The translations under genes and the position numbers were made by a program. Below the pieces are notes generated by a model that saw only the letters and a program-made list of their open reading frames with translations, was not told the DNA's origin and did not search any database. 32,265 bases of DNA from assembly GCA_030550625.1 (NCBI GenBank), contig JAUQOZ010000211.1, positions 1 to 32,265 of the forward strand. The letters run 5' to 3'. Shown piece after piece: positions 2,109 to 25,787 of the stretch (position 1 is the stretch's first letter; every line of letters starts with the position of its first letter). The stretch is from Chloroflexota bacterium (GTDB taxonomy: Bacteria; Chloroflexota; Chloroflexia; Chloroflexales; Chloroflexaceae).

Positions 2109-2861
2109 TCACTCCTCTCGCGACTGTTTTGCCTTTGCGGCATACGACGGCATGATTACCTCACGCATCTTCTGCGGGTCGATGCGGAAGTTCTCTATTA
2201 ATTCTACCACGTAGCGCAAATGTGATCGCGGGATGGAAACGAACATTTCACTCGGATCGAGCCGGTTATGCATCCGTCCGCCGCCGTCGCCAATCGCAAA
2301 CACTGAATTTTTCGTGTGCCATGGCGCAGCAAAAATCGAGGCGCATGCGCTAGCGCCCAACTCGCCAACCGGAAATGTGCCGATCCGCACGCTGGCTGCC
2401 CCGGCAATCTGCATCGCCCGCTGTGGATCGACCACACACACCATCAGATCAACCGGCACGCCGTCGGGCACGTCATCGAGCGGTGCGGCTGCCAATGCTT
2501 TGATCATCCCCGCCGGCAGCGAGTAGCTCTGCTGTTTATTGCAGGCCGCTGCTTCCGGCGTGTAGAAGCCTTGCGCGTCGGTCAGATAGACACCCTCGGT
2601 AATGTATGGCCCCGGATTGGGATTCAGACCGAGGTGATATTGACCGACCCAGCAGTCATGATGCTCGGCATCAACATAGACCCGCCGCCCCTGTTCGGCT
2701 TCGCGCACAATTGCGCACGCCACCACATTGGCCGGTTCGTATCCCGGTGGCGGCCCATCGTAGCAGTAGGTGATCGCAACTGGTCGTCGCTTCACCCGCA
2801 TCCGCTCGATCAAGAGGCGGTTGAGTTCCTTCAAATCGGGAATCGTATCGACTTCGCTCAT
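2109..2861 (-). CDS. DUF169 family protein in the bch operon
   Basis: A 250-residue soluble protein that I assign to the DUF169 family from its overall pattern: KRRPVAITYCYDGPP near the N-terminus, VVACAIVREAEQG, then AEHHDCWVGQYHLGL, and a C-terminal region with ACASIFAAPWHTKNSVFAIGDGGG and IPRSHLRYVVELIENF. Six cysteines (C33, C49, C70, C107, C142, C173) could bind a metal or cluster. The function of the family is not known. I chose ATG 2861 because GGAGG lies five bases upstream; an earlier ATG at 2942 has a badly spaced GAGGG touching it. The gene lies between bchX and the small membrane protein, in the same direction, so a role in pigment synthesis or its regulation is a reasonable inference. 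It does not resemble any standard Bch enzyme I know. Confidence 0.75.
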   Translation of the reverse strand: MSEVDTIPDLKELNRLLIERMRVKRRPVAITYCYDGPPPGYEPANVVACAIVREAEQGRRVYVDAEHHDCWVGQYHLGLNPNPGPYITEGVYLTDAQGFYTPEAAACNKQQSYSLPAGMIKALAAAPLDDVPDGVPVDLMVCVVDPQRAMQIAGAASVRIGTFPVGELGASACASIFAAPWHTKNSVFAIGDGGGRMHNRLDPSEMFVSIPRSHLRYVVELIENFRIDPQKMREVIMPSYAAKAKQSREE

Positions 2862-2966
2862 TACCGCCTCCATAGCGGATGTTGCAACTCTGGGCTTTCG
2901 GCGTGCAATTCCATTGCCGTTTGGCCCCAGCGCCAGATCCATCCCTCAATCCACCAGCGTATTCTC

Positions 2967-3057: not shown

Positions 3058-3073
3058 CGCTAGCCGGCTAGCG
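3058..3073. repeat. 16-base perfect palindrome over the bchX stop
   Basis: CGCTAGCCGGCTAGCG is a perfect uninterrupted palindrome overlapping the TAG stop of bchX. It could be a protein binding site or a chance product of the stop context; with no loop it would form only a poor RNA hairpin. Confidence 0.4.
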
Positions 3074-4300
3074 GTAGAACGGGCTGGCCGGACGGCGCAG
3101 GTCAACGTAGCGGAATTGTTCGCCCGATCGCTGCAACGCGGCCAGAATCGCAATCTTGCTGTCAAGATCGTCGGCGCTGCCCATGCAGATGGTGGTATGG
3201 CCATCGATGGTCAACGTCATTCCTTTCTTGGGGTCGTGGTTGGCTTCGGTCACGTACATCCCCAACTCATTGAGCAGACGTTTGACGACCATGCGGGTGG
3301 GGGCGTCCATCTCCGGCTTATCGCCAACCGCCCGTTCCATCAGACCGAGCGTTATCACCGGTGCTGGCCGCCGCACCGTTTGGCCGCCGAACAGTTCTTC
3401 TGCAGTGGCGCCATCAGGCACAATATCTGGCTCTTCGGCCCCGAACACGCTCAAGAACTCTTTGTACTCAAGCGGGCGGACATCTTCCATCTTGACTGCC
3501 GGCAAGGTGCGATCGATGATCTGGCGAGCCAGCCGGTCGAAGATCGCGTCGAAGCGCGGCTCTTGCAGCGCCAACTGGCAAGCGTCGGCCAATTCGCGCA
3601 CCGTGCGATCCAGCGGGATGCTGGTCAAGATGGGTAGGTTGATCTTCTCGGCAAACCGGGCCGCCACACCGCTGCCATCATCGCGGTTGACCACCAGCCC
3701 CAGCAGTTTGGTGCGCCCGCCCATGCTGGCGAAATACTTGGCAGCGCTCGCAATATTATTGGCCGCGTAGAGGCTTTGGCGGTCGTTGCCACAGAGGATA
3801 ATCACCTCTTCGGCCAGCGAGCGCGAGAGCGGCGTCGCGAAGCCGCCGCACACCACATCACCCAGAAAGTCCATCACCACATAATCGAGCGCCCACTGGC
3901 TGAGGCCGAACTTTTCGAGCATATCGAAGCCGAACGTGATCCCGCGCCCGCCGCAGCCGCGCCCGACCTCCGGGCCGCCGATCTCGCAGCCATAGACGGT
4001 GGCCCGGCCCATAATGGTCGTCTTGAAGATCACGTGATGCGCGGCCAATTCATCTTCGCGCCCGGCTTCCTTAAACTCGCGCCAGACGTCGCCGAGGGTG
4101 GGCAAGCTGACGCCGCCAAATAGCGCGTTACAGCTATCGTGCTTCGGATCGCAGCCAAGCTGGAGCACCCGATTCCCCAACAGCGCCAGTTTGCTGACCA
4201 GATTGGTGGTGAAGAACGACTTCCCCATGCCGCCTTTGCCGTAGACGGCGAGCATCCGCGCGGTTGTACCGGTTTGCTTCTGTTTAGGATGCGCTGGCAT
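3068..4300 (-). CDS. bchX: Chlorophyllide a reductase iron protein subunit X
   Basis: BchX is the nitrogenase-NifH-like ATPase that delivers electrons to BchYZ, reducing the C7-C8 bond of chlorophyllide a (ring B). The 410-residue product shows the P-loop GKGGMGKS at residues 21-28, switch I CDPKHDS at 50-56, and the two cluster-ligating cysteines C116 (EVGRGCGGRG) and C151 (DFLGDVVCGGFATP). It is BchX and not BchL because of the YGCEIGGPEVGRGCGGRG segment and the partner genes bchF and bchC. Typical BchX proteins are about 330-360 residues; the last ~100 residues here are an extension with a pattern resembling the C-terminal part of FtsQ (DDLDSKIAILAAL, then FRYVDLRRP). ATG 4300 has only a weak AGAAAGAG upstream; 30 bases separate it from bchC. 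bchY and bchZ are not in the window. Confidence 0.96.
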   Translation of the reverse strand: MPAHPKQKQTGTTARMLAVYGKGGMGKSFFTTNLVSKLALLGNRVLQLGCDPKHDSCNALFGGVSLPTLGDVWREFKEAGREDELAAHHVIFKTTIMGRATVYGCEIGGPEVGRGCGGRGITFGFDMLEKFGLSQWALDYVVMDFLGDVVCGGFATPLSRSLAEEVIILCGNDRQSLYAANNIASAAKYFASMGGRTKLLGLVVNRDDGSGVAARFAEKINLPILTSIPLDRTVRELADACQLALQEPRFDAIFDRLARQIIDRTLPAVKMEDVRPLEYKEFLSVFGAEEPDIVPDGATAEELFGGQTVRRPAPVITLGLMERAVGDKPEMDAPTRMVVKRLLNELGMYVTEANHDPKKGMTLTIDGHTTICMGSADDLDSKIAILAALQRSGEQFRYVDLRRPASPFYR

Positions 4301-9056: not shown

Positions 9057-12000
9057 ATGTCACGCCAATTTGCTACCGTTCGCCGTTCCATCCTCAGCTT
9101 GTTGTTGATCATGGCTGTAGCCTTTGTGGGATTGCGGCCTGATGTTGCGTTCGCGAACGCGACCGTCAATGTGGTGCTCAGCACCAATTTCCCAGTGGTG
9201 AATAGCGGCGATTGGTCAGTTATTAATGTTGATTATAGCTGTTCGAGCGTGCTCAATACGCCGTGCGAAAATGCCACTGTAACGGTCGTGATCCCGCCTG
9301 AATTGGCTGGCGGCGCCGGCGATGTCCAAGCTCTCGGCGCTGGGACGTCGCCCTCGTACAATCCGGCAACCCGCACGGTAACGTGGACGTTTACTTCACC
9401 GCTGGCCGCCGGTGATTCCGGCCGGCTTGAGCTGCGAGTGCGCTTCCCCGCCGGCTCGACGCCTGATGGCACGACGGCTACCCTCCGCGCCGAGATGCGC
9501 GCGACCACCGCGCCTCCGCGCCTCTCGAACCCGCTGACGATTACGGCCCGCGCCGAGCCGCAGGCTGTCGCGACCAAGACCTTTGTTTCCGGTGGCGCGC
9601 CTGATGTGCCGACGACCTACCAGTTGCAGGTTTGTATTCCGAATAATGGCTCTGGTTCGCTCAATCTGACCAATGTCCAGATTGTTGATACCCTGCCCGC
9701 CGGCGCGACGTTTGTGAGCGCATCCGATGGCGGTACCTATAATAATGTCACGAATACGGTGACGTGGCCGGCAACCAGCCTGACCGTGCCGGGCAGTCTC
9801 TGCGCCACCCGTACTGTGACTGTGATCTTCCCCTCAGCCTCTTTCCCGGTTGGTACTGAGGTGCGGAATGTGATGGATGTCACGGCGCAAGCCGGTTCGG
9901 TGACGTTGACCTTGACCGCTGATGACGTGCGCCGGATCCAGCCGCCTACCCCCGGTTTGGGTTCGAGCAAGAGCGGCCCCGCTTCGGCGTTAATTGGCGA
10001 TACCGTGACCTATACCCTCAGCGCGGTGAATACTGGTACGACCGCGCTAACTGATGTGGTGATTACCGATCCGGTGCCGCCGGAGTTGCAGGTGACGCGG
10101 ATCACCGCTGGCGGCGGGAACATTTCCGGCATTCGGGTTGCGCTCGAATATACGACGAATCTCAACTCGACCTTTACCGCCGTTCCCGGCAGTCCCTTTA
10201 CTACGACGAGCTGCGTTAATATCGCGCCTACAACCGGCGGCGGTTGCGCGACCCTGACTTTAGCCCCCGGCGAGCAGATTACGGCCATTCGCTGGCGCTA
10301 TCTCGATCCGTTGCCGTTTGGCTTTAGCGCCACCGGCCACAATTTCAGCGCCGTTGTCACCGCTAGCCCGGTGAATGCGGTGATCGTCAATCAGGCGACC
10401 AGCGCCTATACCTTCAATGGGTTTACCTCCACGCGGGTCAGCGAAGCGCGCACCCGCATTATCGAACCCGGCGCGCGCGCCATTGTCACCAAATCAGTTG
10501 ATCCGACGATCGCCTATTCGGGTGATACGGTAGAGTATACGATTACATTGCAGAATGAGCAGGTCGGGACGCCGGCGGCGGCGCTGGTGAATCCGGTGTT
10601 GGCCGATTTGCTGGTGACGAGCCTGAGTTATGTGCCCGGCAGTTGGTCGGTCGTGTCGCGCCCGTCCGGTGCGCCCGATCCGATCTTTGAAGCGATCCCG
10701 AATTACAACGGCACTGGCCGCACCTTGCTGCGCTGGCGCTGGGATAGCTATAGCTTGCCGCCGAATGCAGCGTTCACGATCCGTTTCCAAGCCCAGATTG
10801 ATCCGCGTACTTTGGCCGGCACGGTCAATAATACCGCTTCGTTGGCGAGTTTTGCCAATCCGCCCGGCGAGATCTTTATCGATCGCTGCAGTCAGCAAAA
10901 CCCTGATACTCATGACTTTGATGGCGATGGCAATATCACCGAATTGCTCTGCTCGTCGTCAATTACCAGCCTCAGTCTGGCTGCCGCTGCGAATGCAAGT
11001 TCGGCGAAGTGGGTGCTGGGTCAGCTCGATACGGTTTGGACGCGCTATCCCGATTTTGGTCTGACCACCCCCGGCGGTATGGCCGATTACCAGTTGATTA
11101 TTACCAATACCAATTCGGTTGCGCTGACTAATCTGGTGCTGATCGACATTTTGCCGTGGGTTGGCGATGTTGGTGTCGTGCGCTTTGACCAGTCGCGCGG
11201 CAGCCAGTGGCAGCCTTATCTAGCCGGCCCGATTAGCGTGCCCGATGGCGCAACGGTCTATTACAGCACGACCAATAATCCATGCCGGAATCCTGATCTC
11301 GGCCTGACTGATGTCGATGGTAATCCAATCGACTCACCCGGCTGTGTCGATCCGCAGTGGTCAACCTCGTTGCCGGCTGATATTACCACCGTGCGCTCGA
11401 TCCGGATCAATTTCGGCAGCCGGATTCTCTATCCCCAAGACTCAGTGGTGATTACGTGGCCGATGCGCGCGCCGGTTGGCGGCGATCTCAACGAGGTGGC
11501 ATGGAACTCGTTTGGCTATCAGGCTACGGATATTAATGGCAACCCGCTCTTAGCCGCTGAGCCAGCTCAAGTTGGCATCCGGCGAGGGCCTGTGTTGCCG
11601 CCTTCGTATGGGAACTATGTCTGGCTCGACGCGAATCTCAACGGTCTCCAAGACCCCGGTGAGGTGGGTGTCAATGGCGCCCGGATCGATTTCTATCAGG
11701 ATAATGACGGCATCACCGGCCCTAGCGCCGGCGATCGCTGGGTTGGCTTTACCATCTCTGGCCCGGATAACGACGGCAATCCCGGTTTCTATCTCTTCTC
11801 TGATCCGGATGATATTCCGCCCGGCAATTACTATATCCGCGTGACGCCGCCGGCTGGCTACGGCTTCACTACCCCGAATGTGGGAGCCAACGACGCAATC
11901 GATTCGGATATTGATCCGGCGAGCCGCTATAGCGCCGTGACCGAGCTGGTCTCAGGCGAGCATGATGATACGTGGGACGTCGGTTTGGTGACGGTGACGG

Positions 12001-15000
12001 CGGTTGGCAATTATGTCTGGATTGACCGTAACGGCAATGGGATTCAAGATGAACCTCCCGGCGATGGCGTCAATGGCGTGACCGTGCGGCTCTACCGGTC
12101 AGATAATACGCTGGTGGCGACGACCGTTACCGCCGACGATTTCCTTGGCAATCCCGGTTACTACATCTTTAGCGATCTCAGCGCTGGTGATTACTACATC
12201 GAATTTGTTTTGCCCACCGGCTTTACCTTCACTACGGCCGATGCCGGCAGCAACGATGAGGCTGATTCGGACGCGAATCCGACGACTGGCCGCACGGGGG
12301 TATTTACCCTTGCCGCAAATCAGCTCGACCGTAGCCGCGATGCCGGTCTGCTTGCACCGTCCGGCACGCTCCGGTTGGGCAATCGAGTTTGGTTTGACCG
12401 CGATAACGATGGCCGCTATGAGCCGGCCAATGGCGAGACCGGCATTAATGGGGTGTCGCTGAGCCTGTTCCGCGATTTCAACAACAACGGCCAGCCTGAC
12501 CCCGGTGAGTATGTTGGCAGCTCGGTGACGATGACGGTTGGCGGCGAAGCCGGCTATTACCAGTTCACCAATTTGGCCGCCGGTAACTACATTGTGGTGG
12601 TTGATGACAGCAATTTCGCCCCCGGCGGCGCGTTGTTCGGCATGCGCACCAGCAGCGGCAACGATCCGGCGCCTGATCCCGATAACGATGTTGACCACGA
12701 TGATAACGGCGATCTGATCGGCGGCATTGTGCGCTCGTTGCCGATGACCCTCTCGGTGGGCGGTGAGCCGGTGAACGATGGCGATGACGCCAACGGCAAC
12801 CAGACCCTCGATTTCGGCTTTATCAATGGCGCTGCGCTGGGTGATCGGGTTTGGTTCGATACCAACAATAACGGCATCCAAGATGCTGGCGAGCCCGGCG
12901 TGCCCGGCGTGACGGTTGAACTGCTCGATGGCAGTGGCAATCCGATCGATAGTGATCCGGCGACTCCGGGTGTACAACCGACCATCACCGTCACCGATGG
13001 CGCTGGCCGCTATGGCTTTACCGGTCTGAGCGCCGGCACGTATCGCGTGCGCTTTAGCGGTCTGCCTAGCGGCTACAGTTTCACCACGCCCGATCAGGGG
13101 GCGAACGATGCGCTCGATAGCGATGCTGACGCAACCGGTCTCACGCCGGTGATTACGCTGGCTGCCAATCAGACTGACCTGCGCTGGGATGCCGGTCTGG
13201 TGGCGGCGCCGGCCAGCCTTGGCGATCGGGTTTGGAACGATCTCAATTACAACGGCATCCAAGATGCCGGTGAGCCGGGGGTGAGCGGGGTGGAGGTCAG
13301 CCTCTACCGGCCCGGCTACGATGGCGTCGCTGGTACGTCCGATGATGAGTTAGTGGCAACCACTACGACCGATAGCAGCGGCAACTACAGCTTCACCAAC
13401 TTGCCCCCCGGCCGCTACTTCGTCCAGTTTGGCCCGCCGCCGGCTGGGTATACGATCACAGCGACTGATCAGGGGGCGGATGACGCTGCCGATAGCGATG
13501 CTGACCTCACCACTCGCCGTACCGCGCTGATCGATCTTGCGCCGGGCCAGAACGATCCCAATTGGGATATGGGGTTGTTCGTCTTCGCTACTATCGGCGA
13601 TCGGGTCTGGAGCGATACGAACAATAACGGCATCCAAGATGCCGGCGAACCGGGAGTTGGTGGGGTGCAAGTGCGCCTCTACCGGCCCGGCAGCAGTGTG
13701 CCGGTGGCGACCACTACTACCAATAGTAGTGGCTTCTACACCTTTACCAATCTCATTCCCGCCGATTACTACGTTGAGTTTAGCCTGCCCAGCGGCTACC
13801 GCGCGAGCCCGCGTGATCAAGGATCGGATGATACGCTCGACAGCGACGCCGATCCGGTCACGCGCCAGACGATTGCGACCACGCTCGATCCGGGTGAGAA
13901 TGATCCAACGTGGGATTTCGGCATTGTACCGACCGCCAGCATCGGCGATCGGGTCTGGCTCGATCTCAACGCCAACGGTATTCAAGATGCTAACGAGACG
14001 GCTGGTGTGCCCGGCGTGCAAGTCGTGCTCTACGACGGTGCAGGTAATGTACTCAATACCACCGTCACCGATGCTGATGGCTTCTACCGCTTTGATAATC
14101 TGTTGGCCGGCGATTACTACCTGCGCTTCGTCGTGCCCGCCAGCTTTATCGTCAGTCCGCAGGATCAGGGTGGGAACGATAATGCGGACTCGGACGTTGA
14201 TCCAACGACCTTCCTGACGGCGCCGACGACCCTAAGCGCCGGTGAGAACGATCTGCGCTGGGATCTTGGTCTCTACCAGTTGGCCAGCATTGGCGACCGG
14301 GTGTGGCACGATGTCAATGGCAATGGCCGCCAAGACGGCGGCGAGCTCGGCGTGCCCAACGTGCCGGTGTCGCTCTACCAACCCGGCCCCGATGGCTTGG
14401 CTGGCACTGCTGATGATGTGCTGGTTAACAGTACGACCACCGATATTGATGGATTCTACCGCTTTGATAACTTGATGCCCGGCCGCTACTTCGTCCAGTT
14501 CGGTGCGGCTCCCGGCTACAGCTTGCTGAGCCCGCGCGACGCGGCTGCGGCGACCGACGAAACCGACAGCGATGTTGACGACAACCGGCGCACGCCGATC
14601 GTTGAGTTGGCGTCGAGTACGGCCAATCTCACCCTTGATATGGGTGTGCTCAACCCAGCCACCCTCGGCAACTACGTCTGGTTTGACGCTAATGTGAACG
14701 GGATTCAGGATAGTGGCGAAACCGGCGTGCAGGGTGTGACGGTCAGCTTGTACACCCTCAACGGCACGCTGGTGGCGACGCAGAATACCGATAACGACGG
14801 CCTCTACCTGTTTACGAACCTGCTGCCGGGTGAATACTACGTTGTCTTTAGCAATCTGCCCGCCAATCGCTCGTTCACCCGCCCTGATCAGGGCAGCGAC
14901 GATGCGCTCGATAGCGATGCCAACCCGCTCGACGGGCGCACCGGCATCGTCCGGCTTGCTTCGGGTGAGACCAACCTGACCGTTGACGCCGGTATCTTCG

Positions 15001-18000
15001 AGACGATCACGGTCGGCGATCGGGTCTGGATCGACCGCAATGCGGATGGCATTCAAGATGCCGGCGAGACCGATGGCGTGCCCGGCGTGCGGGTCGAGTT
15101 GCTGCGTGACAGTGACGGCGCGGTGCTCGATGTGACCTACACCGATCTGAACGGTCTCTACCAGTTCACCAATCTCTTCCCCGGCACCTATCGCATCCGC
15201 TTCAGCGAGATTCCAGCCGGATACTTCCGCAGTCCGCAGGATCGCGGCACGGACGATCAGCTCGATAGCGACGCCAACATCAGCTTCGAGACGGCGCCGT
15301 TTACGCCGGTATCGGGCAATAATCCGCAGTACGACCTTGGTCTCTACCGGTTGGCGAGGATTGGCAACTTCGTTTGGGAAGACCGCAACGGCAACGGCCG
15401 CCAAGATGCCGGCGAACCGGCGATTCCCGGCGTGACGGTGACGCTGACCGGCACCACCGGCCCCGGCGATCCGGTGACGCTGTCGCAGACGACCGATGCG
15501 AACGGCTTCTATCTGTTCGATAATCTCGTGCCGGGTACGTACACCGTCAGCGTCACGGCGCCATCTGGCTATGTCTTCACCGCTGCCAATCAAGGTGACG
15601 ATCTGGGTGACTCTGACGCCGATGATAGCGGTGTGATGGCTACCACCACGCTCGAATCGGGTGAAGAAGACTTGACGTGGGACGCCGGTCTCTACCGGCC
15701 AGCCAGCATCGGCAACTTTGTCTGGCGCGATACCAACGGCAATGGTCTGCAAGACGCCGGTGAAGCTGGAATTGATGGTGTTACTGTGACACTAACCGGA
15801 ACGACCGGTGCAGGTGTGACGGTCAACCAGACCACGACCACTGCTGGCGGCGGCCTCTATAGCTTCACCAATCTTGCGCCGGGCACCTATCAGATTACCG
15901 TCACCGCGCCGGGCGGCGAACAGTTTACCTACCGCGACATTACCGCCGCCGAAGTAGCCGGCGCGACCGATGCCAACGATAGCGATGCTGATGCCAGCGG
16001 TGTAATGATCGCCACTACGCTGGAGTCGGGTGAGAATGATCTGACATGGGATGCCGGTCTGGTCATTCCGGCCAGTGTGGGCGATTTGGTCTGGGAAGAC
16101 CTCAACGGCAACGGTGTGCAAGAGGCAGGCGAACCCGGCTTCCCAAATGTGACCGTTGCGCTGATTGGGGCTGGGCGCGACCGCACCTTCGGCACCGCCG
16201 ACGATACGTTAGCGACGACGACTACCAATGGTAGCGGCAGCTACGGCTTTGCCGACCTGCAACCCGGCCTCTACCGTGTCCGCTTTACCCGCCCGGCTGG
16301 CTACGCCTTTACGGTGGGTGATGCGGCAGCAGCGACCGACGCGACCGACTCGGACGTGCCTGCCGGTGTGGCGGCGACCGCGACGACGATCACGATTGAT
16401 CTAGAGTCGGGTGAGAATGATCCAACATGGGACGCTGGTCTCTACCAGCTCCTCTCGCTGGGCAACCGGGTGTGGGAGGATGTGAATAACAACGGCGTGC
16501 TTGATAGCGGCGAGAGCGGGCTCGATGGCGTGCAAGTCCGTCTCTACCGTGACCTCAACGGTGACGGTGATGTCAACGACTCCGGCGAGACGACACCGGT
16601 GGCGACCACGACGACCAGCAACGGCGGCTACTATCTGTTCAGTGGCTTAGAGCAAGGCGACTATCTGGTTGAGGTGGTCTTGCCGAGCGGCTATGTCTCG
16701 AGCACCGGCACGAACGGCAGCGCCAGCGGCCCCTACGAGCCGGCGCCCGATGCTGATGCCAACAGTACCGATAGTGATGACAACGGCACCCAGAGCGGCA
16801 GTGTCGTCCGCAGCTCGATTGTGCGCTTGCGGCCCAGCACCGAACCGACTGGCGAGACCGATCCGTTGCCCGCCGCGATCAGCGATCCGGCCCGCGACGA
16901 GAACAGCAACCTGACGGTTGACTTCGGTCTTTTCCGCCCGGCTAGCCTTGGCAATCTGGTCTGGTTCGACCGCGATGCCAACGGCGTGCAGAACGGCGGT
17001 GATGAGACGGGGATTAGTGGCGTGCAGGTGCGGCTCTACCGTGATGATGACGGCACCGCTGGCCCCAGCGCCGGCGATAGCCTCATCGCCGAGACTACGA
17101 CCAATGCTTCTGGGATCTACGGCTTTAACTATCTGATCCCGGCGAATAACTACTATCTGGTCTTCGACCTGCCCACCGGGTATGTGCGCAGTCCGCGCGA
17201 TCAGGGTAGCGATGATACGGCCGATAGCGATCCCGACCGGACGAGCGGCGCCACCGTGTTGATCACGCTGGTTGCTGGCCAGAATGACCAGAGGTGGGAC
17301 GCCGGTCTCTACCAATTGGTTAACCTTGGCAATCAGGTCTGGAATGATGTCAACAACAACGGCCAGCTCGATGGCGGCGAAAGCGGCATTGATGGCGTGA
17401 CCGTCAATCTCTACTACGACGCTAATCGCAACGGTGTGATCGATGGCGCAGAGAATACGCCGTTCGCAACTACCACCACCAGCGGTGGCGGGTTCTATGC
17501 CTTTGCCGACCTCGATCCGGGCAACTATCTGGTCGAGATTCCGGCCAGCAACTTCGCTGCCGGCGGGGTGCTGGGGCCGAGCGGCACTATGCCGGCCTTC
17601 CGTTCCAGCACTGGAACGAACGGTAGCCCGACTGGGCCGTTTGAGCCAGCACCCGATCCCGATAATAACGTCGATAACGACGACAACGGTACCACCGACG
17701 GCAGCGGCAATGTGCGCGCGGCCCTGATCACGCTGCGCTCGCAAGATGAGCCAACCAACGACGGTGACGGCAATAACGGTAACCTGACGGTTGACTTCGG
17801 CTTCTTCCGCCCGCTGGCGCTGGGCAACTTCGTCTGGCACGATTACAACAACAACCGTGCGGTTGATGCTGGCGAACCCGGCATCGATGGCGTGACGGTG
17901 CAGCTCTACCGCGATACCAACGGTAACGGCGTCTACGATGCCGGCACTGATGCGCTGGTAGCGACGACCACCACTGCCGGCGGCGGTTTCTACCGCTTTG

Positions 18001-21000
18001 ACAACCTCGCTCCCGGCGACTACCTCGTCGTCATTCCGGGGAGCAACTTTGGCGCTAGCGGCGCGTTGCGCTTCTTCCGCAGCAGTGATGGCGGCAATGC
18101 CAACGACAGCACTGGCACGCCCGATCCCGATAACGACGTTGATAATGACGACAACGGCATCGGGCCGAATGTGGGAATTGTGACTGGTGCTACGAATCAT
18201 CGGGTCGTCAGTAGAGCAGTCACGCTGAGCGTTGGTGGCGAGCCAACCGCTGAAGATGGCGACAGCAACACCAATCTGACGGTTGACTTCGGCTTCTATA
18301 GCTTAACCATTGGCAACCGGGTGTGGATCGATGCCAATAACAATGGCGTCGTGGATGCCGGCGAGTCTGGTGTTGCCAATAATACGCCGGTGCAGTTGCT
18401 CTACGATGCCAACGGCAATGGCGTGCTAGAGGGCGCCGAACTCACTACCGTTCTTGCCACCTTCAACACCAACAATGGCGGTCGCTACTTCTTCGGCGGT
18501 TTGCGTGATGGCGGCACCTACGCCATTCAGGTGGTTTCGGATGGGACGCTGGTGTCGAGTACGGGCATCAATGGCATGGCAGCCGGCCCCTATGAGCCGG
18601 GTCTCGATCCGGATACTGACACTGGTGATAACAACGACAACGGTACGGCGGTTGCCAGCAGCACCAATGTACGCAGCCCGGATTTCACGGTGCGGGTTGG
18701 GTCGATGCCTACTGGCGAGGCTGATACTGTCTTGCCGACTGGTATTACGAACCCGGCGATCGATGCTAACAGCAACCTGACCATTGACTTCGGCCTGTTC
18801 GACGAAGCCCAAATCGGCGATCGGGTCTGGCTCGATGTGAACGGCAACGGGTTGCAGGATGCCGGCGAAACCACCAACATCGCTGGGGTGACGATCACGA
18901 TCTACGATGCCACGACCAACCAGCCGCTCGACGGCGATCCGGGGACGCCGGGCATCCAGCCGATTACACGCACCTCGACGGCGGCGGTGACGAGCTATCT
19001 CTTCGACCGCCTGATCGCCGGCTCCTACTATCTGGTCTTTAGCGACATTCCGGCGCAGTACGCGATTAGTCCGCTTGATCAGGGCGCTGATAATGCGGTC
19101 GACTCGGATGTCGATCCGGCAACCCTGCGCACGGCGACGATCACGCTCGGCGCAACCAATAACAACGACCTGACGTGGGATCTCGGTCTCTACCCGCGGC
19201 TCACGCTAGGCAATTTGGTCTGGTACGACAGCAACGACAACGGCGTGGTGGATAGCGGCGAGAACGGCATCCTCGGCGTGCGGGTCGAACTCTACCGCGA
19301 TAGCAATGGCAACAGCCAGCCTGATGCCGGCGAGTTCGTTACCTTCACGACTACCGATGCCAGCGGCAACTACCTCTTCACCGGCCTTGAGCAGGGTGAC
19401 TATATCGTGGTCATCCCAGAGAGCAATTTCGCGCTGGGCCAGCCGCTCTACCGCCACCGCTCGAGCACCGGCGCCAATGGCGCGGCGACCGGCCCCTATG
19501 AGCCGGCGCCCGATCCGGATAACAACGTTGACAATGATGACAATGGCACTGATGTGCCAACCGTTGGTGTCGTCAGCCGCCCGATCACACTTAACCCGTC
19601 GTTCGAGCCAACCACCGACGGCGATGACGCCAACGGCAACCTGACCCTCGACTTCGGCTTCTTCGAGCCGTTGACGCTGGGTAATCTGGTGTGGAACGAC
19701 GTGAACAACAACGGTCTGTTCGAGACCGGTGAAACTGGCATCGATGGCGTGCGCGTCGAGTTGTACCTCGACAGCAACGACAACGGTCAGGTCGATGCGG
19801 GTGAGTTCGTTGCCTTCACTACCACGGCAGGCGGCGGCCTCTACACCTTCAGCGACTTGATCGAAGGCAACTACATTGTGCGCATCCCAGCCAGCCAGTT
19901 CGCGACGGGCCAACCGTTGGCCGGTTTCGTCTCGAGCACTGGCACGAACGGCAGCCCGATCGGGCCGTTTGAGCCGGCGCCCGATCCCGACAATAACGTC
20001 GATAACGACGATAACGGCACGACCGGCCCCGGCGGCAACGTCGATAGCCTGCCGATCACGCTTGCCCGCGGCACTGAGCCGGTGACTGACGGCGATGGCG
20101 ACAACGGCAACTTGACGGTTGACTTCGGCTTCTTCCGCCATGCCCGCCTCGGCGACCGGGTCTGGCACGATGTGAACGCCAACGGTCTGCAAGAGAGCGG
20201 CGAGAGCGGTATTAGCAACGTGACTGTCGAGCTGTACAGCGCCGGCGCTGATGGTCAGATCGGCGGCGGTGACGATACGCTGGTAGCAACCACGACCACC
20301 GATGCCAGCGGGATCTACGGCTTCAGCCACTTGATCCCCGGTAACTACTATGTCCGCTTTGCCCTGCCCGCCGGCTACACCGATGTTAGCCCGCAAGATC
20401 AGGGTAGCGACAACGCGATCGACAGCGACGCCGATCCGGTCACCCGCCAGACGGTGGTGATCGCGCTGGCCGCCGGCGATAACGACCCAACGTGGGATAT
20501 GGGTGTCTTCAACCGGGCCAGCGTCGGCAACTTCGTCTGGGAAGATCGCAACGGCAACGGGGTGCAAGATGCCGGCGAGCCGGGAATCCCCGGTGTGACC
20601 GTGACCCTCTACCGCGCGAGCGATGACTCGGTGGTAGCCGTTGACACGACCGATGGTGATGGCTTGTACAGCTTCACCGGTCTTTTGCCCGGCGAGTACT
20701 ACGTGGTCTTTAGCAACCTGCCCAGCGGCTATGTCTTCACGGTGGCTGATCAAGGCAGTGATAACGCGGTTGATTCAGATGCCAGCCCGACGACTGGCCG
20801 CACTGCCAACTTCACGTTGGTCAGCGGCCAGAGCGACCAGACGTGGGACGCCGGTCTCTACCGGCCAGCCAGCCTTGGCGACCGGGTCTGGCACGATCTC
20901 AACGCGAATGGCGTACAGGAGAGCGGTGAGCTGGGGGTGGCTAGCGTAGGCGTTGCGCTCTTCAGCGTTGGCCCTGATGGTGTGGTTGGCGGCGGCGATG

Positions 21001-24000
21001 ATGTGCTCATAGCCACGACCAGCACTGATGGCAATGGCAACTACAGCTTCAGCGGGTTGGCGCCGGGCCGCTACTATCTGCTCTTCAACCTGCCGGCCGG
21101 ATTCAGCGCAATCAGCCCGCAGGATCAGGGTGGTGATGATACGATTGATAGCGATCCGAACCCGATCTCGCGCCAAACCACGGTGATCACGCTCAATTCG
21201 GGCGATAATGACCCGACGTGGGATATGGGTCTCTACAATCCTGCCAGCGTGGGCAATTTCGTCTGGGAAGATCTGAATGGCAACGGGGTGCAAGATGCCG
21301 GCGAGTCGGGAATTAGCGGCGTGACCGTGACGGTCTACCGCGCGAGCGACAACTCGGTGGCAGGGATCGCTACAACCGCGCTCGATGGCTCCTACAGCAT
21401 TACCGGCCTCGTGCCCGGCGAGTACTACATCGTCTTCAGCAACCTGCCCAGCGGCTATGTCTTCACGGCGGCTGATCAGGGCAGTGATAACGCGGTCGAT
21501 TCGGATGCCAACCCAACCACTGGTCGCACGGCCAACTTCATCTTGGTCAGCGGGCAGAGCGACCTGACGTGGGATGCCGGTCTCTACCGGCCAGCCAGCA
21601 TTGGTAACTACGTCTGGGAAGACCTGAACGGCAACGGGGTGCAAGACACCGGTGAGCCGGGGGTGGCGAACGTGACGGTGACGCTGAGCGGCACGACTGG
21701 CGCAGGGGTGACGGTCAATCGCACCACCACCACCAACGGCGGTGGCCTCTACCTGTTCGACGGTTTGGCGCCGGGTACGTACACGGTGGCGGTGGCGCTG
21801 CCGAGCGGCTACGAGTTCACCGTGGCTAATCAGGGTGCGGATGATGCGGTGGATTCGGACGCCGATCCAACCACCGGCGCGATGAGCGCGACCGTGTTGG
21901 TGTCGGGCGAGGAAGACCTGACGTGGGACGCCGGTCTCTACCGGCCGGCCAGCATCGGCGATCGCGTGTGGCGTGACTCTAACGGCAATGGTGTGCAAGA
22001 CGCCGGCGAGCTGGGGGTGGCGAATGTTGAAGTGCGGTTGAGCGGGACGACTGGTGCCGGTGTGTCAGTTAATCGCACCACCTTCACCGATAGCGATGGC
22101 CTCTACCGGTTCGACGGCCTTGCGCCGGGTGAATACGCCATCACCGTGATCGCGCCGCCCAACGACGCCTTCACCGTGCCCAATCAGGGTGGCGATGATA
22201 CGCTCGACTCTGACGCAGACGCCAGTGGGGCGATGCCAAGCACGACGCTGACGTCGGGCGAGGAAGACCTCACGTGGGATGCGGGTCTGTTCGGCGCGGC
22301 CAGCATCGGCGACCGGGTGTGGGAAGACCTCAATGGCAACGGCATCCAAGATGCTGGCGAGCCGGGGGTGGCGAACGTGACGGTGACGCTGAGCGGGACG
22401 ACCGGCGCGGGGGTGGCGGTCAACCGCAGCACCACTACCGATAGCAATGGCTTCTACCTGTTCGATGGTCTCGCACCGGGTACGTACACGGTGACGGTGG
22501 TGCAACCGAGCGGTTACGAGTTCACCGTGGCCAATCAAGGCACAGACGATGTGGACTCGGACGCCGATCCAACCACCGGCGCGATGAGCGCAACAATCTT
22601 GGTGTCGGGCGAGGAAGACCTGACGTGGGACGCGGGTCTCTACCGTCCAGCCAGCATTGGCAACTTCGTCTGGGAAGACCTGAACGGTGATGGCATCCAA
22701 GACGCCAGCGAGCCGGGGGTGGCGAACGTGACGGTGACGCTGAGCGGGACGACCGGCGCGGGAGTGGCGGTCAACCGCAGCACCACTACCGATAGCAACG
22801 GCTTCTACCTGTTCGATGGTCTCGCGCCGGGTACCTACACGGTGACGGTGGCGCGGCCAAGCGGCTACGAGTTCACTGCGGCCAATCAGGGAACAGACGA
22901 TGCGGTGGATTCAGACGCCGATCCAACCACCGGCGCGATGAGCGCGACGATCTTGGTGTCGGGCGAGGAAGACCTGACGTGGGATGCCGGTCTCTACCAG
23001 CCGGCCAGCGTGGGCAACTTTGTCTGGCGCGATGTGAACGGTGACGGTGTGCAAGATGCTGGCGAACCCGGTATCGGCGGCGTCACTGTGACGCTGACCG
23101 GGGCCGGGCCGGATGGCGTGTTCGGCACGGCAGATGATGTCAGCCGCACCACGACCACCGATAGCAACGGTGAGTACCTCTTTGACAACCTGCCGCCGGG
23201 CAACTACCGGCTGACCTTTAGCGATATTCCGGCTGGATTGACCTTCAGCCCAGCCGATCAAGGCAGCGATGATACCGCTGATAGTGATGTCATCACGAGC
23301 GGCGGCGCTACCGGTGTCTTTGCCCTTGCCAGCGGCCAGAGCGATCTGTCGCGTGATGCCGGTCTGTATCCGTTGTTGAGCCTCGGCAATCTGGTCTGGG
23401 TCGATACCAACAACAACGGCATCGTGGACGGCAGCGAGAGCGGCGCGAGCAGCGTGCAAGTCCGGCTCTACCGCGACAGCAACGGCAATGGGGTGTGGGA
23501 TGCGGCCGATCAACTGGTTGCCACCACGTGGACGGATAGCAATGGCAATTACCGCTTCACCGGCTTGCCGCAAGGCAACTACTTCGTGGTCTTGCCGGGA
23601 TGGCAATTCGGCATCGACGGCTTCTGGTACGGCTACCGCAGCAGCACCGGCGCGTTCTCGCTGACGGCTGGGCCGTATGAGCCGGCGCCTGACGCCAATA
23701 CCGATCTCGACAACGACGATAACGGTACGCGGCAGGCCGATGCTGACTCGGACTTCAACATCGTCAGCGGCCTGATCGAGCTGCGGCCTGATAGCGAGCC
23801 GGATACAGCCGTTGACGGCGACGGGCGCGACAGCAATCTGACCATCGACTTCGGCATCTTCCGGCCGGCGGTGGTGGGTGATCTGGTCTGGAGCGATCGC
23901 GACGGCAATGGCGTCCAAGACGCCGAGGAGCCGGGAGTGGCGAATGTGCGCGTCACCCTTTACTACGTTGGCGTTGACGGCATTGCCGGCACGGCTGACG

Positions 24001-25787
24001 ACGTCGAGGTGGCGACGCAGCTCACCGATAGCAATGGCTTCTACGAGTTTACCGACCTGTTGCCGGGCGACTACTATCTGGTCTTCAGTGAATTGCCGGC
24101 GGGAGCGCGCTTCACCGCCGCCGATCAAGGCGCTGATGACACGCTCGACTCGGATGCCGACCCGGTCACTGGCGTGACTGCCGTCTTCTCGCTCGAGAGC
24201 GGCACGATCGCTTGGGATTGGGACGCCGGTCTGCTCCTGCCGGCCAGTGTGGGCAACCGTGTCTGGCTGGATGCCAACGGCAACGGCGTGCAAGACAGCG
24301 GTGAGCGCGGGATCGAAGGCGTCACCGTGCGCCTGACCGGTACTGACATTGACGGCAACCCGGTTGATCTGAGCACGATCACCGATAGCAACGGTGAATA
24401 CCTCTTTGACAACTTGCCGCCGGGCAGCTACCGGCTGACCTTTAGCGATATTCCGGCTGGATTAACCTTCAGCCCGGCCGATCAAGGCGGCGATGATACC
24501 GCTGATAGTGATGTCATCACGAGCGGCGGTGAAACGGCGGTCTTTGACCTCGGCAGAGGTCAGAACGATCTGTCGCGTGATGCCGGTCTGTATCCGTTGT
24601 TGAGCCTCGGCAATCTGGTTTGGGTCGATGCGAACAACAACGGCGTGGTGGATAGCGGCGAGCGCGGGGCGAGCGGGGTGCAAGTGCGGCTCTACCGTGA
24701 CAGCAACGGCAACGGGGTGTGGGATGCCGCCGATCAACTGGTTGCCACCACGTGGACGGATAGCAATGGCAATTACCGCTTTACCGGCTTGCCGCAAGGC
24801 AACTACTTCGTAGTCTTGCCGGGATGGCAATTCGGTATCGACGGCTTCTGGCCCGGCTACCGTAGCAGCACTGGCGACTTCTCGCTAACGGCTGGGCCAT
24901 ACGAGCCGGCGCCTGACGCCAACAACGATCGCGACAACGACGATAACGGCACACGGCAGGCGGATGCTGACTCGGACTTCAACATCGTCAGCGGCGTGAT
25001 CGAGCTGCGGCCTGACAGCGAGCCAGATACAGCCGTTGATGGTGATGGGCGCGACAGCAATCTGACTATTGACTTCGGCATCTTCCAGCCGGCCAGCGTG
25101 GGCAACCGGGTCTGGAACGACCTCAACGCCAACGGCATTGCCGAGGCGGGTGAAGAGGGCGTCAGCGGGGTCACGGTCAGGTTGTATCGGTCTGACGGCA
25201 CGCTGGTTGGCACGGTCGTGACCGGCGATGATGGCAGCTACCTATTCACCGACTTGCCGCCGGGGAGCTACTACATCGAGTTTGGTCTGCCGGATGGATG
25301 GGGATTTAGCCCGCAAGGACAGGGTAATGATAGCGGGCGTGACAGCGATGTTGACCCGAACACGCAACGCACGCAGGTCTTCACGCTCACCAGCGGCCAG
25401 AATGACCTCAGTTGGTGGGCAGGCATCCACCGCGCGCCGCCGACCGCGATCACGCTGCTCAGCTTCACCGCCGAGCGGCAGAGCAACGGTGTGCTGCTGC
25501 GCTGGGTGACGGGTAGCGAACGGGATACGCTCGGCTTCGTGATCTTGCGCAGTGCGAGCGGCAACCGGGCGGATGCGGTACAGATCGTGGCGACGCCGAT
25601 CCCGGCGCAGGGCAGCGCGGGTGGTGGTGCGAACTACCAGTGGCTCGATCGCACGGCCCAGCCGAACGTGAGCTATCACTACTGGCTGGTCGAGATCGAA
25701 GCTGGCGGCAGCCGCAACGAGTTTGCCTTGCACAGTCCAGCGCTGCAATTCACGTATCGGGTGCTCGTGCCGATCATCCAGCGCTAA
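9057..25787 (+). CDS. Giant secreted SdrD-B-repeat protein (5576 residues)
   Basis: A single uninterrupted frame encoding a surface or extracellular rod. Residues 1-33 are a Sec signal peptide (RR, hydrophobic core ILSLLLIMAVAFVG, cleavage after AFA). Residues ~34-845 hold about five DUF11-like beta-sandwich domains (for example TVTYTLSAVNTGTTALTDVVITDP). Residues 850-5458 hold 35 SdrD-B-like repeats, each with a VGNxVWxDxNxNGxQDxGE loop, GxYxFxxLxPGxYxV and an ending like DLTWDAGLY or LTVDFGFF; such domains bind Ca2+ in staphylococcal Sdr proteins. Residues 5459-5576 form a fibronectin-like domain ending YRVLVPIIQR. No LPXTG, transmembrane anchor or dockerin is seen. ATG 9057 has GAGG eight bases upstream. 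By eye no Lys follows K651 and no Cys follows C763. Adhesion, filament sheath or mat cohesion are likely roles, by analogy only. Confidence 0.95.
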   Translation: MSRQFATVRRSILSLLLIMAVAFVGLRPDVAFANATVNVVLSTNFPVVNSGDWSVINVDYSCSSVLNTPCENATVTVVIPPELAGGAGDVQALGAGTSPSYNPATRTVTWTFTSPLAAGDSGRLELRVRFPAGSTPDGTTATLRAEMRATTAPPRLSNPLTITARAEPQAVATKTFVSGGAPDVPTTYQLQVCIPNNGSGSLNLTNVQIVDTLPAGATFVSASDGGTYNNVTNTVTWPATSLTVPGSLCATRTVTVIFPSASFPVGTEVRNVMDVTAQAGSVTLTLTADDVRRIQPPTPGLGSSKSGPASALIGDTVTYTLSAVNTGTTALTDVVITDPVPPELQVTRITAGGGNISGIRVALEYTTNLNSTFTAVPGSPFTTTSCVNIAPTTGGGCATLTLAPGEQITAIRWRYLDPLPFGFSATGHNFSAVVTASPVNAVIVNQATSAYTFNGFTSTRVSEARTRIIEPGARAIVTKSVDPTIAYSGDTVEYTITLQNEQVGTPAAALVNPVLADLLVTSLSYVPGSWSVVSRPSGAPDPIFEAIPNYNGTGRTLLRWRWDSYSLPPNAAFTIRFQAQIDPRTLAGTVNNTASLASFANPPGEIFIDRCSQQNPDTHDFDGDGNITELLCSSSITSLSLAAAANASSAKWVLGQLDTVWTRYPDFGLTTPGGMADYQLIITNTNSVALTNLVLIDILPWVGDVGVVRFDQSRGSQWQPYLAGPISVPDGATVYYSTTNNPCRNPDLGLTDVDGNPIDSPGCVDPQWSTSLPADITTVRSIRINFGSRILYPQDSVVITWPMRAPVGGDLNEVAWNSFGYQATDINGNPLLAAEPAQVGIRRGPVLPPSYGNYVWLDANLNGLQDPGEVGVNGARIDFYQDNDGITGPSAGDRWVGFTISGPDNDGNPGFYLFSDPDDIPPGNYYIRVTPPAGYGFTTPNVGANDAIDSDIDPASRYSAVTELVSGEHDDTWDVGLVTVTAVGNYVWIDRNGNGIQDEPPGDGVNGVTVRLYRSDNTLVATTVTADDFLGNPGYYIFSDLSAGDYYIEFVLPTGFTFTTADAGSNDEADSDANPTTGRTGVFTLAANQLDRSRDAGLLAPSGTLRLGNRVWFDRDNDGRYEPANGETGINGVSLSLFRDFNNNGQPDPGEYVGSSVTMTVGGEAGYYQFTNLAAGNYIVVVDDSNFAPGGALFGMRTSSGNDPAPDPDNDVDHDDNGDLIGGIVRSLPMTLSVGGEPVNDGDDANGNQTLDFGFINGAALGDRVWFDTNNNGIQDAGEPGVPGVTVELLDGSGNPIDSDPATPGVQPTITVTDGAGRYGFTGLSAGTYRVRFSGLPSGYSFTTPDQGANDALDSDADATGLTPVITLAANQTDLRWDAGLVAAPASLGDRVWNDLNYNGIQDAGEPGVSGVEVSLYRPGYDGVAGTSDDELVATTTTDSSGNYSFTNLPPGRYFVQFGPPPAGYTITATDQGADDAADSDADLTTRRTALIDLAPGQNDPNWDMGLFVFATIGDRVWSDTNNNGIQDAGEPGVGGVQVRLYRPGSSVPVATTTTNSSGFYTFTNLIPADYYVEFSLPSGYRASPRDQGSDDTLDSDADPVTRQTIATTLDPGENDPTWDFGIVPTASIGDRVWLDLNANGIQDANETAGVPGVQVVLYDGAGNVLNTTVTDADGFYRFDNLLAGDYYLRFVVPASFIVSPQDQGGNDNADSDVDPTTFLTAPTTLSAGENDLRWDLGLYQLASIGDRVWHDVNGNGRQDGGELGVPNVPVSLYQPGPDGLAGTADDVLVNSTTTDIDGFYRFDNLMPGRYFVQFGAAPGYSLLSPRDAAAATDETDSDVDDNRRTPIVELASSTANLTLDMGVLNPATLGNYVWFDANVNGIQDSGETGVQGVTVSLYTLNGTLVATQNTDNDGLYLFTNLLPGEYYVVFSNLPANRSFTRPDQGSDDALDSDANPLDGRTGIVRLASGETNLTVDAGIFETITVGDRVWIDRNADGIQDAGETDGVPGVRVELLRDSDGAVLDVTYTDLNGLYQFTNLFPGTYRIRFSEIPAGYFRSPQDRGTDDQLDSDANISFETAPFTPVSGNNPQYDLGLYRLARIGNFVWEDRNGNGRQDAGEPAIPGVTVTLTGTTGPGDPVTLSQTTDANGFYLFDNLVPGTYTVSVTAPSGYVFTAANQGDDLGDSDADDSGVMATTTLESGEEDLTWDAGLYRPASIGNFVWRDTNGNGLQDAGEAGIDGVTVTLTGTTGAGVTVNQTTTTAGGGLYSFTNLAPGTYQITVTAPGGEQFTYRDITAAEVAGATDANDSDADASGVMIATTLESGENDLTWDAGLVIPASVGDLVWEDLNGNGVQEAGEPGFPNVTVALIGAGRDRTFGTADDTLATTTTNGSGSYGFADLQPGLYRVRFTRPAGYAFTVGDAAAATDATDSDVPAGVAATATTITIDLESGENDPTWDAGLYQLLSLGNRVWEDVNNNGVLDSGESGLDGVQVRLYRDLNGDGDVNDSGETTPVATTTTSNGGYYLFSGLEQGDYLVEVVLPSGYVSSTGTNGSASGPYEPAPDADANSTDSDDNGTQSGSVVRSSIVRLRPSTEPTGETDPLPAAISDPARDENSNLTVDFGLFRPASLGNLVWFDRDANGVQNGGDETGISGVQVRLYRDDDGTAGPSAGDSLIAETTTNASGIYGFNYLIPANNYYLVFDLPTGYVRSPRDQGSDDTADSDPDRTSGATVLITLVAGQNDQRWDAGLYQLVNLGNQVWNDVNNNGQLDGGESGIDGVTVNLYYDANRNGVIDGAENTPFATTTTSGGGFYAFADLDPGNYLVEIPASNFAAGGVLGPSGTMPAFRSSTGTNGSPTGPFEPAPDPDNNVDNDDNGTTDGSGNVRAALITLRSQDEPTNDGDGNNGNLTVDFGFFRPLALGNFVWHDYNNNRAVDAGEPGIDGVTVQLYRDTNGNGVYDAGTDALVATTTTAGGGFYRFDNLAPGDYLVVIPGSNFGASGALRFFRSSDGGNANDSTGTPDPDNDVDNDDNGIGPNVGIVTGATNHRVVSRAVTLSVGGEPTAEDGDSNTNLTVDFGFYSLTIGNRVWIDANNNGVVDAGESGVANNTPVQLLYDANGNGVLEGAELTTVLATFNTNNGGRYFFGGLRDGGTYAIQVVSDGTLVSSTGINGMAAGPYEPGLDPDTDTGDNNDNGTAVASSTNVRSPDFTVRVGSMPTGEADTVLPTGITNPAIDANSNLTIDFGLFDEAQIGDRVWLDVNGNGLQDAGETTNIAGVTITIYDATTNQPLDGDPGTPGIQPITRTSTAAVTSYLFDRLIAGSYYLVFSDIPAQYAISPLDQGADNAVDSDVDPATLRTATITLGATNNNDLTWDLGLYPRLTLGNLVWYDSNDNGVVDSGENGILGVRVELYRDSNGNSQPDAGEFVTFTTTDASGNYLFTGLEQGDYIVVIPESNFALGQPLYRHRSSTGANGAATGPYEPAPDPDNNVDNDDNGTDVPTVGVVSRPITLNPSFEPTTDGDDANGNLTLDFGFFEPLTLGNLVWNDVNNNGLFETGETGIDGVRVELYLDSNDNGQVDAGEFVAFTTTAGGGLYTFSDLIEGNYIVRIPASQFATGQPLAGFVSSTGTNGSPIGPFEPAPDPDNNVDNDDNGTTGPGGNVDSLPITLARGTEPVTDGDGDNGNLTVDFGFFRHARLGDRVWHDVNANGLQESGESGISNVTVELYSAGADGQIGGGDDTLVATTTTDASGIYGFSHLIPGNYYVRFALPAGYTDVSPQDQGSDNAIDSDADPVTRQTVVIALAAGDNDPTWDMGVFNRASVGNFVWEDRNGNGVQDAGEPGIPGVTVTLYRASDDSVVAVDTTDGDGLYSFTGLLPGEYYVVFSNLPSGYVFTVADQGSDNAVDSDASPTTGRTANFTLVSGQSDQTWDAGLYRPASLGDRVWHDLNANGVQESGELGVASVGVALFSVGPDGVVGGGDDVLIATTSTDGNGNYSFSGLAPGRYYLLFNLPAGFSAISPQDQGGDDTIDSDPNPISRQTTVITLNSGDNDPTWDMGLYNPASVGNFVWEDLNGNGVQDAGESGISGVTVTVYRASDNSVAGIATTALDGSYSITGLVPGEYYIVFSNLPSGYVFTAADQGSDNAVDSDANPTTGRTANFILVSGQSDLTWDAGLYRPASIGNYVWEDLNGNGVQDTGEPGVANVTVTLSGTTGAGVTVNRTTTTNGGGLYLFDGLAPGTYTVAVALPSGYEFTVANQGADDAVDSDADPTTGAMSATVLVSGEEDLTWDAGLYRPASIGDRVWRDSNGNGVQDAGELGVANVEVRLSGTTGAGVSVNRTTFTDSDGLYRFDGLAPGEYAITVIAPPNDAFTVPNQGGDDTLDSDADASGAMPSTTLTSGEEDLTWDAGLFGAASIGDRVWEDLNGNGIQDAGEPGVANVTVTLSGTTGAGVAVNRSTTTDSNGFYLFDGLAPGTYTVTVVQPSGYEFTVANQGTDDVDSDADPTTGAMSATILVSGEEDLTWDAGLYRPASIGNFVWEDLNGDGIQDASEPGVANVTVTLSGTTGAGVAVNRSTTTDSNGFYLFDGLAPGTYTVTVARPSGYEFTAANQGTDDAVDSDADPTTGAMSATILVSGEEDLTWDAGLYQPASVGNFVWRDVNGDGVQDAGEPGIGGVTVTLTGAGPDGVFGTADDVSRTTTTDSNGEYLFDNLPPGNYRLTFSDIPAGLTFSPADQGSDDTADSDVITSGGATGVFALASGQSDLSRDAGLYPLLSLGNLVWVDTNNNGIVDGSESGASSVQVRLYRDSNGNGVWDAADQLVATTWTDSNGNYRFTGLPQGNYFVVLPGWQFGIDGFWYGYRSSTGAFSLTAGPYEPAPDANTDLDNDDNGTRQADADSDFNIVSGLIELRPDSEPDTAVDGDGRDSNLTIDFGIFRPAVVGDLVWSDRDGNGVQDAEEPGVANVRVTLYYVGVDGIAGTADDVEVATQLTDSNGFYEFTDLLPGDYYLVFSELPAGARFTAADQGADDTLDSDADPVTGVTAVFSLESGTIAWDWDAGLLLPASVGNRVWLDANGNGVQDSGERGIEGVTVRLTGTDIDGNPVDLSTITDSNGEYLFDNLPPGSYRLTFSDIPAGLTFSPADQGGDDTADSDVITSGGETAVFDLGRGQNDLSRDAGLYPLLSLGNLVWVDANNNGVVDSGERGASGVQVRLYRDSNGNGVWDAADQLVATTWTDSNGNYRFTGLPQGNYFVVLPGWQFGIDGFWPGYRSSTGDFSLTAGPYEPAPDANNDRDNDDNGTRQADADSDFNIVSGVIELRPDSEPDTAVDGDGRDSNLTIDFGIFQPASVGNRVWNDLNANGIAEAGEEGVSGVTVRLYRSDGTLVGTVVTGDDGSYLFTDLPPGSYYIEFGLPDGWGFSPQGQGNDSGRDSDVDPNTQRTQVFTLTSGQNDLSWWAGIHRAPPTAITLLSFTAERQSNGVLLRWVTGSERDTLGFVILRSASGNRADAVQIVATPIPAQGSAGGGANYQWLDRTAQPNVSYHYWLVEIEAGGSRNEFALHSPALQFTYRVLVPIIQR
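20520..21587 (+). repeat. Duplicated repeat pairs (units 22-23 and 24-25)
   Basis: Unit 23 (from about 20520) and unit 25 (from about 21246) are close copies at a 726-base offset (242 codons), sharing YRASD-SV, PSGYVF and DQGSDNAVDSDA segments. Units 22 and 24, which precede them, also match each other (SPQDQG, NDPTWDMG). This indicates duplication of a two-domain block. Confidence 0.7.
21588..22997 (+). repeat. Four consecutive near-identical repeats (units 26-29)
   Basis: Units 26 (21588-21941), 27 (21942-22292), 28 (22293-22643) and 29 (22644-22997) all carry VANVxVxLSGTTGAGV and GEEDLTWDAGL. Units 28 and 29 are nearly identical in DNA; 28 lacks one alanine codon (TDDVDSD against TDDAVDSD). 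This is the youngest-looking part of the array. Confidence 0.8.
23158..25091 (+). repeat. About 710-bp block repeated at a 1224-base offset
   Basis: The segment 23158-23867 (end of unit 30 and all of unit 31) recurs at 24382-25091 (end of unit 33 and all of unit 34). Three separate anchor points give exactly 1224 bases, so there is no net indel in 408 codons. Unit 32, lying between, is not matched by unit 35, so either the copy was partial or unit 35 has since diverged or been replaced. Confidence 0.8.

Follow-up and report, generated by a model that had tools for sequence, protein, structure and literature searches.

The window analysed here is a stretch of 32,265 nucleotides of Chloroflexaceae DNA (contig JAUQOZ010000211.1), and the gene under study is a minus-strand bchX (Table 1). 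The original prediction held that this gene is unbroken and quoted peptides from its end: indeed the 410-residue frame at 3068–4300 runs without a break, and the peptides are found at the C-terminus of BchX. Over residues 15–302 the protein matches the NCBIfam BchX model TIGR02016 at its full length (model positions 1–296) and scores 473.7 bits (cut-off 331.2); the structural model of this core matches structures of NifH, the nitrogenase Fe protein, and of BchL with Z scores of about 29–33. The protein is predicted to act as the Fe protein of chlorophyllide a reductase (COR). Its partners BchY and BchZ match TIGR02015 and TIGR02014 above the respective cut-offs; in this genome both are encoded on another contig (C348). 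The same-strand neighbours of bchX comprise bchF (Pfam BCHF), a PUCC-family frame, a methyltransferase frame, a DUF169 frame and a ChlI-type Mg-chelatase subunit, as well as a frame of zinc-dehydrogenase type that takes the position of bchC, a name based on position and length. The DUF169 gene (PF02596, E 2.5e-37; 2109–2942, minus strand) follows directly after bchX within the bch gene run. On the plus strand, the window also carries a single open frame of 5576 residues at 9057–25787.

Table 1. Features of bchX and its C-terminal tail (window coordinates).
Feature	Position	Strand	Remarks
bchX	3068..4300	(-)	410 aa, open frame intact, stop at 3068-3070
NifH-like Fe-protein core, residues 15-302	3395..4258	(-)	TIGR02016 and Fer4_NifH matches; fold
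Linker, residues 303-332	3305..3394	(-)	sequence and length vary; 311-327 with low model confidence
FtsQ-derived C-terminal domain (almost certain), residues 333-410	3071..3304	(-)	helix, three strands, helix, short strand; sequence and fold
End segment DLRRPASPFYR, residues 400-410	3071..3103	(-)	occupies the place of the FtsB-binding FtsQ strand (E. coli)

The region 3068–3400 corresponds to BchX residues 301–410. Compared with four BchX proteins of Pseudomonadota, the native BchX end lies at about residue 320; this is a hand count with the last residues of the Pseudomonadota proteins set gapless, because the aligner scatters them. An extension of about 100 residues after the NifH-like fold had been proposed. 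The extension exists, but by this alignment it amounts to approximately 85–90 residues, with residues 333–410 as the folded part. In the full-length AlphaFold model (40 rows) residues 311–327 of the linker are poorly predicted and a compact domain follows, composed of a helix (333–346), three strands (350–356, 360–365 and 369–374), a second helix (379–392) and a short strand (398–400). When the tail was folded alone, using an alignment of 36 tails without FtsQ, a mean pLDDT of 93.5 and a pTM of 0.84 were obtained. These fold predictions suggest that residues 333–410 form a separately folded module, which would be joined to the native end of BchX via a flexible linker.

The 36 tails were compared with the 24,736 families of Pfam. 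FtsQ_DivIB_C (PF03799) was the sole family matched by any of them at E ≤ 0.01; it was found for 27 of the 36 tails, with a best E-value of 7.1e-6. The window's own tail scores 20.7–20.9 bits against a gathering cut-off of 21, and the BchX tail of a second genome (G222) 20.9 bits alone and 21.4 bits with its neighbours in frame. FtsQ was not among the Pfam families listed for the whole 410-residue protein, was not shown for the tail in NCBIfam and was not listed in a single-sequence tail search of solved chains. In the window's own genome the Pfam FtsQ model found FtsQ but missed the BchX tail even at E ≤ 10, and over 41 genomes of the order it matched one BchX tail only, that of G222: when whole genomes are scanned, the model lacks the sensitivity to pick up most tails. 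A score just below the cut-off, the misses in the whole protein and the whole genome, and the absence of FtsQ from the single-sequence search of solved chains are also what one would see if a short alpha/beta segment resembled FtsQ by chance or through convergence.

Searches with the tails themselves, whose failure to return FtsQ had been named beforehand as the outcome that would speak against the proposed relation, did find FtsQ. A profile of 19 tails, built without FtsQ (alignments A2 and A4 each contain 19 rows, A6 contains 36), gave two matches only in the window's own genome, namely itself and the C-terminus of FtsQ (E 3.2e-6). This FtsQ gene (G000:C268) sits between D-Ala-D-Ala-ligase-like and ftsA-like frames (names assigned by eye); nowhere else in this genome does the Pfam FtsQ model match. 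Applied to 60 genomes of the order, the tail profile returned 43 BchX tails and 50 other matches at E ≤ 0.01, 45 of which were confirmed as FtsQ: 25 coincide with places matched by the Pfam FtsQ model and 20 were identified via an FtsQ-only profile with 92–195 bits. In the opposite direction, the FtsQ-only profile detects all 46 tails examined (19.8–55.6 bits). Of a set of 43 bchX loci considered for alignment A1, L015 (short tail), L020 (broken frame) and L021 and L027 (contig ends) were excluded. Profile–profile comparison with hhalign aligned the tails with 26 FtsQ sequences of Chloroflexales over 74 columns at 32% identity (E 1e-17); the score of 95.5 compares with 21.9 for the best of 100 column shuffles and 14.6 for the reversed profile. 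Extending the query into the linker (122-residue version) yields 75 columns covering the same part.

Comparison with solved structures gave the same answer. For the tail profile, the top single-stretch match among solved chains was FtsQ of P. aeruginosa (E 0.0093), the next such match having an E-value of 0.25. In a Foldseek search of the PDB with the tail model the ten top matches were all FtsQ (E 1.7e-3 to 6.2e-2, none at 0.001 or better) and unrelated chains appeared from 0.27 onwards. With VIA-align the seven top entries were all FtsQ, with Z scores of 8.7–6.6 over 81–82 residues, followed by an entry at 5.1. A profile of Chloroflexales FtsQ retrieved no solved FtsQ at E ≤ 1, which indicates that the family drifts fast. 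RecA also appeared in the solved-structure searches; these hits are made up of small fragments, worth roughly one to two bits each, that recur in concatenated RecA constructs; no stretch passes, and we did not count them as homologous.

The blind genome searches, the profile comparison with its controls and the fold search all point to FtsQ. Together, the shuffled and reversed profile controls and the blind genome scans rule out a chance resemblance; to chance or convergence we assign next to no probability. BchX residues 333–410 thus almost certainly descend from the beta domain of FtsQ, namely from its C-terminal half, as judged from profile, fold and whole-genome searches. The idea that the last 50 residues resemble the C-terminal beta region of FtsQ was therefore right about the relation but too narrow in extent, as the resemblance covers about 75 residues.

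The tail matches positions 46–114 of the 114-position PF03799 model, so the domain is incomplete: both in sequence and in fold it corresponds to the second half of the FtsQ/DivIB C-terminal beta domain, up to the FtsB-binding edge. Unlike FtsQ, BchX contains neither the first half of the beta domain nor the POTRA domain (the 14 Pfam families listed with the full-length protein as query include no POTRA family) nor the membrane segment; the host of the tail is a NifH-like enzyme in which no membrane segment is visible by eye. The FtsQ of the window's own genome, although the sole other place matched by the tail profile there, is a full-length divisome protein from which the BchX tails group apart in the tree described below. 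In E. coli, FtsB adds a strand at the edge of the last FtsQ strand, in the Y243–W256 region around Y248 (PMC6134095). The end segment of the tail was placed by alignment with chain 2vh1_A of E. coli FtsQ, which ends opposite residue 255 of that protein. At the place of Y248, directly after the DLR motif, tyrosine occurs in 7 of 31 tails. All 19 tails of the Chloroflexaceae group, to which the window belongs, carry arginine there, and the 12 tails outside this group carry tyrosine (7), glutamate (3) or histidine (2).

We then considered how widely the tail is spread. Among 301 Chloroflexota genomes 25 contain BchX above the model cut-off, in 26 copies, and the tail is present in all 26, that of G246 matching positions 1–70 of 80 only. 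BchX was found at E ≤ 1e-85 in 66 genomes among 400 relatives. Two of these 66, both of family f8 (G281 and G358), have a BchX that scores below the cut-off and ends without a tail. The reaction centres of 12 genomes were tested: the ten tail carriers all have type II (Photo_RC) with no type I match, and both tail-less genomes have a PsaA/PsaB match with no type II match. Judging from the type I match together with PMC10972752, the latter are probably of the Ca. Chlorohelix kind. The tail profile does match a 313-residue frame in G281 (L176); this frame lies on another contig than BchX and scores 47.4 bits with the FtsQ-only profile. Outside Chloroflexota the comparison of BchX was confined to four proteins from plasmids of Pseudomonadota, the plasmid matches displayed being all of this phylum; a scan of viral contigs for BchX gave no relative. 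In contrast to the window's BchX, which adds a linker and an FtsQ-type domain, the BchX of both type-I Chloroflexota and of all four Pseudomonadota end without them. The same tail in all BchX proteins had been named in advance as an outcome against the original prediction, and this is not what is seen. Far from being peculiar to the window's gene, the tail recurs regularly among the type-II phototrophs of Chloroflexota examined. A Chloroflexales-like bchX with a broken frame was also found on a contig filed under Candidatus Gracilibacteria (L020), probably owing to a binning error.

For the origin of the tail we calculated a tree of 53 FtsQ sequences and 31 tails, for which 113 rows had been reduced to 86 by removing redundancy (>92% alike) and to 84 by removing rows with gaps. 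The tails form one side of a branch with a support of 98/96, so that a single capture is enough to explain them. In the free tree they fall outside the FtsQ sequences of Chloroflexales with weak support (72/74). A tree joining the two withstands the test (p-AU 0.565), with a slightly better score. With only 79 columns both placements are compatible with the data.

Selection on the tail was estimated from 15 pairs. Omega was 0.023–0.109 for the tail (12 usable pairs), 0.012–0.107 for the core (12) and 0.033–0.505 for the linker (11); since many dS values exceed 1, these figures are rough. On this rough measure the tail is constrained like the catalytic core and unlike the linker. One exception in length was observed: in Oscillochloris sp. 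ZM17-4 (L015/G246) the BchX frame stops inside the tail, ten residues short, and exactly the last segment is lost. Past the early stop, after position 5197, the DNA of this locus no longer matches that of L009.

In a full-text literature search, in which the coverage of subscription journals is thin, we found no report of a BchX–FtsQ fusion or of a BchX tail. BchX and FtsQ, the parent families, are both known; their fusion is unexpected. From homology, fold, spread and constraint it follows that a photosynthesis enzyme of the cytoplasm has captured, and retained, a part of an extracytoplasmic division protein. The fusion suggests that one half of the beta domain of FtsQ is able to form an independent module.

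What could the module do in BchX? BchX is regarded as cytoplasmic and the beta domain of FtsQ is located outside the membrane; the tail should thus not meet FtsB in its usual place. By analogy with FtsQ, our best guess, to which we give even chances, is that the tail acts in the cytoplasm as a protein-docking handle via its FtsQ-type last strand. The exposed last strand of the tail sheet would be offered to a partner, as FtsQ offers its own to FtsB; the partner would come from bacteriochlorophyll synthesis and would most likely be BchYZ or an enzyme of the step that follows. With two such handles on flexible linkers, a BchX dimer could stay near its partner between cycles of electron transfer. 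We favour docking because FtsQ uses the same fold to offer an edge strand and because the BchX dimer has two such edges. Of the 12 tails that do not belong to the Chloroflexaceae group, 7 have a tyrosine at the FtsB-contact position Y248, which argues for this role. Against it stand the arginine at this position in all 19 tails of the window's group, the glutamate or histidine in 5 of the 12 others and the loss of precisely the last segment in the Oscillochloris BchX. It also speaks against docking that, in an alignment of 12 BchY and 12 BchZ rows, we saw by eye no segment that tracks the presence of the tail. Docking to the membrane, which the original prediction had offered as an alternative to BchYZ, finds no support: no membrane segment is visible in the tail by eye, and the corresponding region of FtsQ is described as membrane-distal in PMC6134095.

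The tail could instead be purely structural and pack on its own BchX dimer as a lid, a dimer clamp or a thermal stabiliser, with no outside partner. The lack of a tail-matching segment in the aligned BchY and BchZ and the constraint equal to that of the core would agree with this, as would the thermophily of many carriers. However, a variable linker of low model confidence is easier to reconcile with a tethered module than with a clamp, and the titles of several carriers (L029–L034) suggest lakes and not hot springs. We regard a structural role as possible though unlikely. It is less probable still that the tail is regulatory and binds a cytoplasmic peptide or protein that is not a COR subunit and tunes COR to light or oxygen. 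Regulation in type-I Chloroflexota and Pseudomonadota may differ from that in tail carriers, which would agree with the lack of a tail in both type-I genomes and in all four BchX of Pseudomonadota examined, but no candidate regulator was found. That the tail is a neutral passenger of one fusion without any function is very improbable: the Oscillochloris BchX is otherwise normal after losing its last ten residues, but omega in the tail is as low as in the core, and all 26 above-cut-off copies in the 301 genomes carry the tail, only one of them shortened.

The tail offers a simple entry point to the question of how BchYZ is found by the BchX dimer. The fusion is also a rare genomic event, which among the genomes examined splits type-II from type-I Chloroflexota phototrophs. 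In a published tree of bacteriochlorophyll-synthesis proteins, RCII Chloroflexota are placed beside RCI Bacteroidota (Chlorobiales), and the BchXYZ placements of type-I Chloroflexota are less stable (PMC10972752). The presence or absence of a tail, or of a trace of it, in the BchX of green sulfur bacteria would bear directly on the question of donor and recipient of bchX. Tentatively, and with the chances rather against it, one may go further: the captured divisome module might still use strand addition in the manner of FtsQ and tether chlorophyllide reductase to a dedicated partner, and the fusion could establish in which direction bchX passed between green sulfur bacteria and Chloroflexota.

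Two observations on gene copies and gene order were made in passing. One genome of family f29 (G262) contains two bchX copies on separate contigs (C37 and C67), both with a tail. In two genomes of family f3 (G142 and G166) bchX, bchY and bchZ adjoin, and in the window's genome bchYZ lie on a different contig from bchX.
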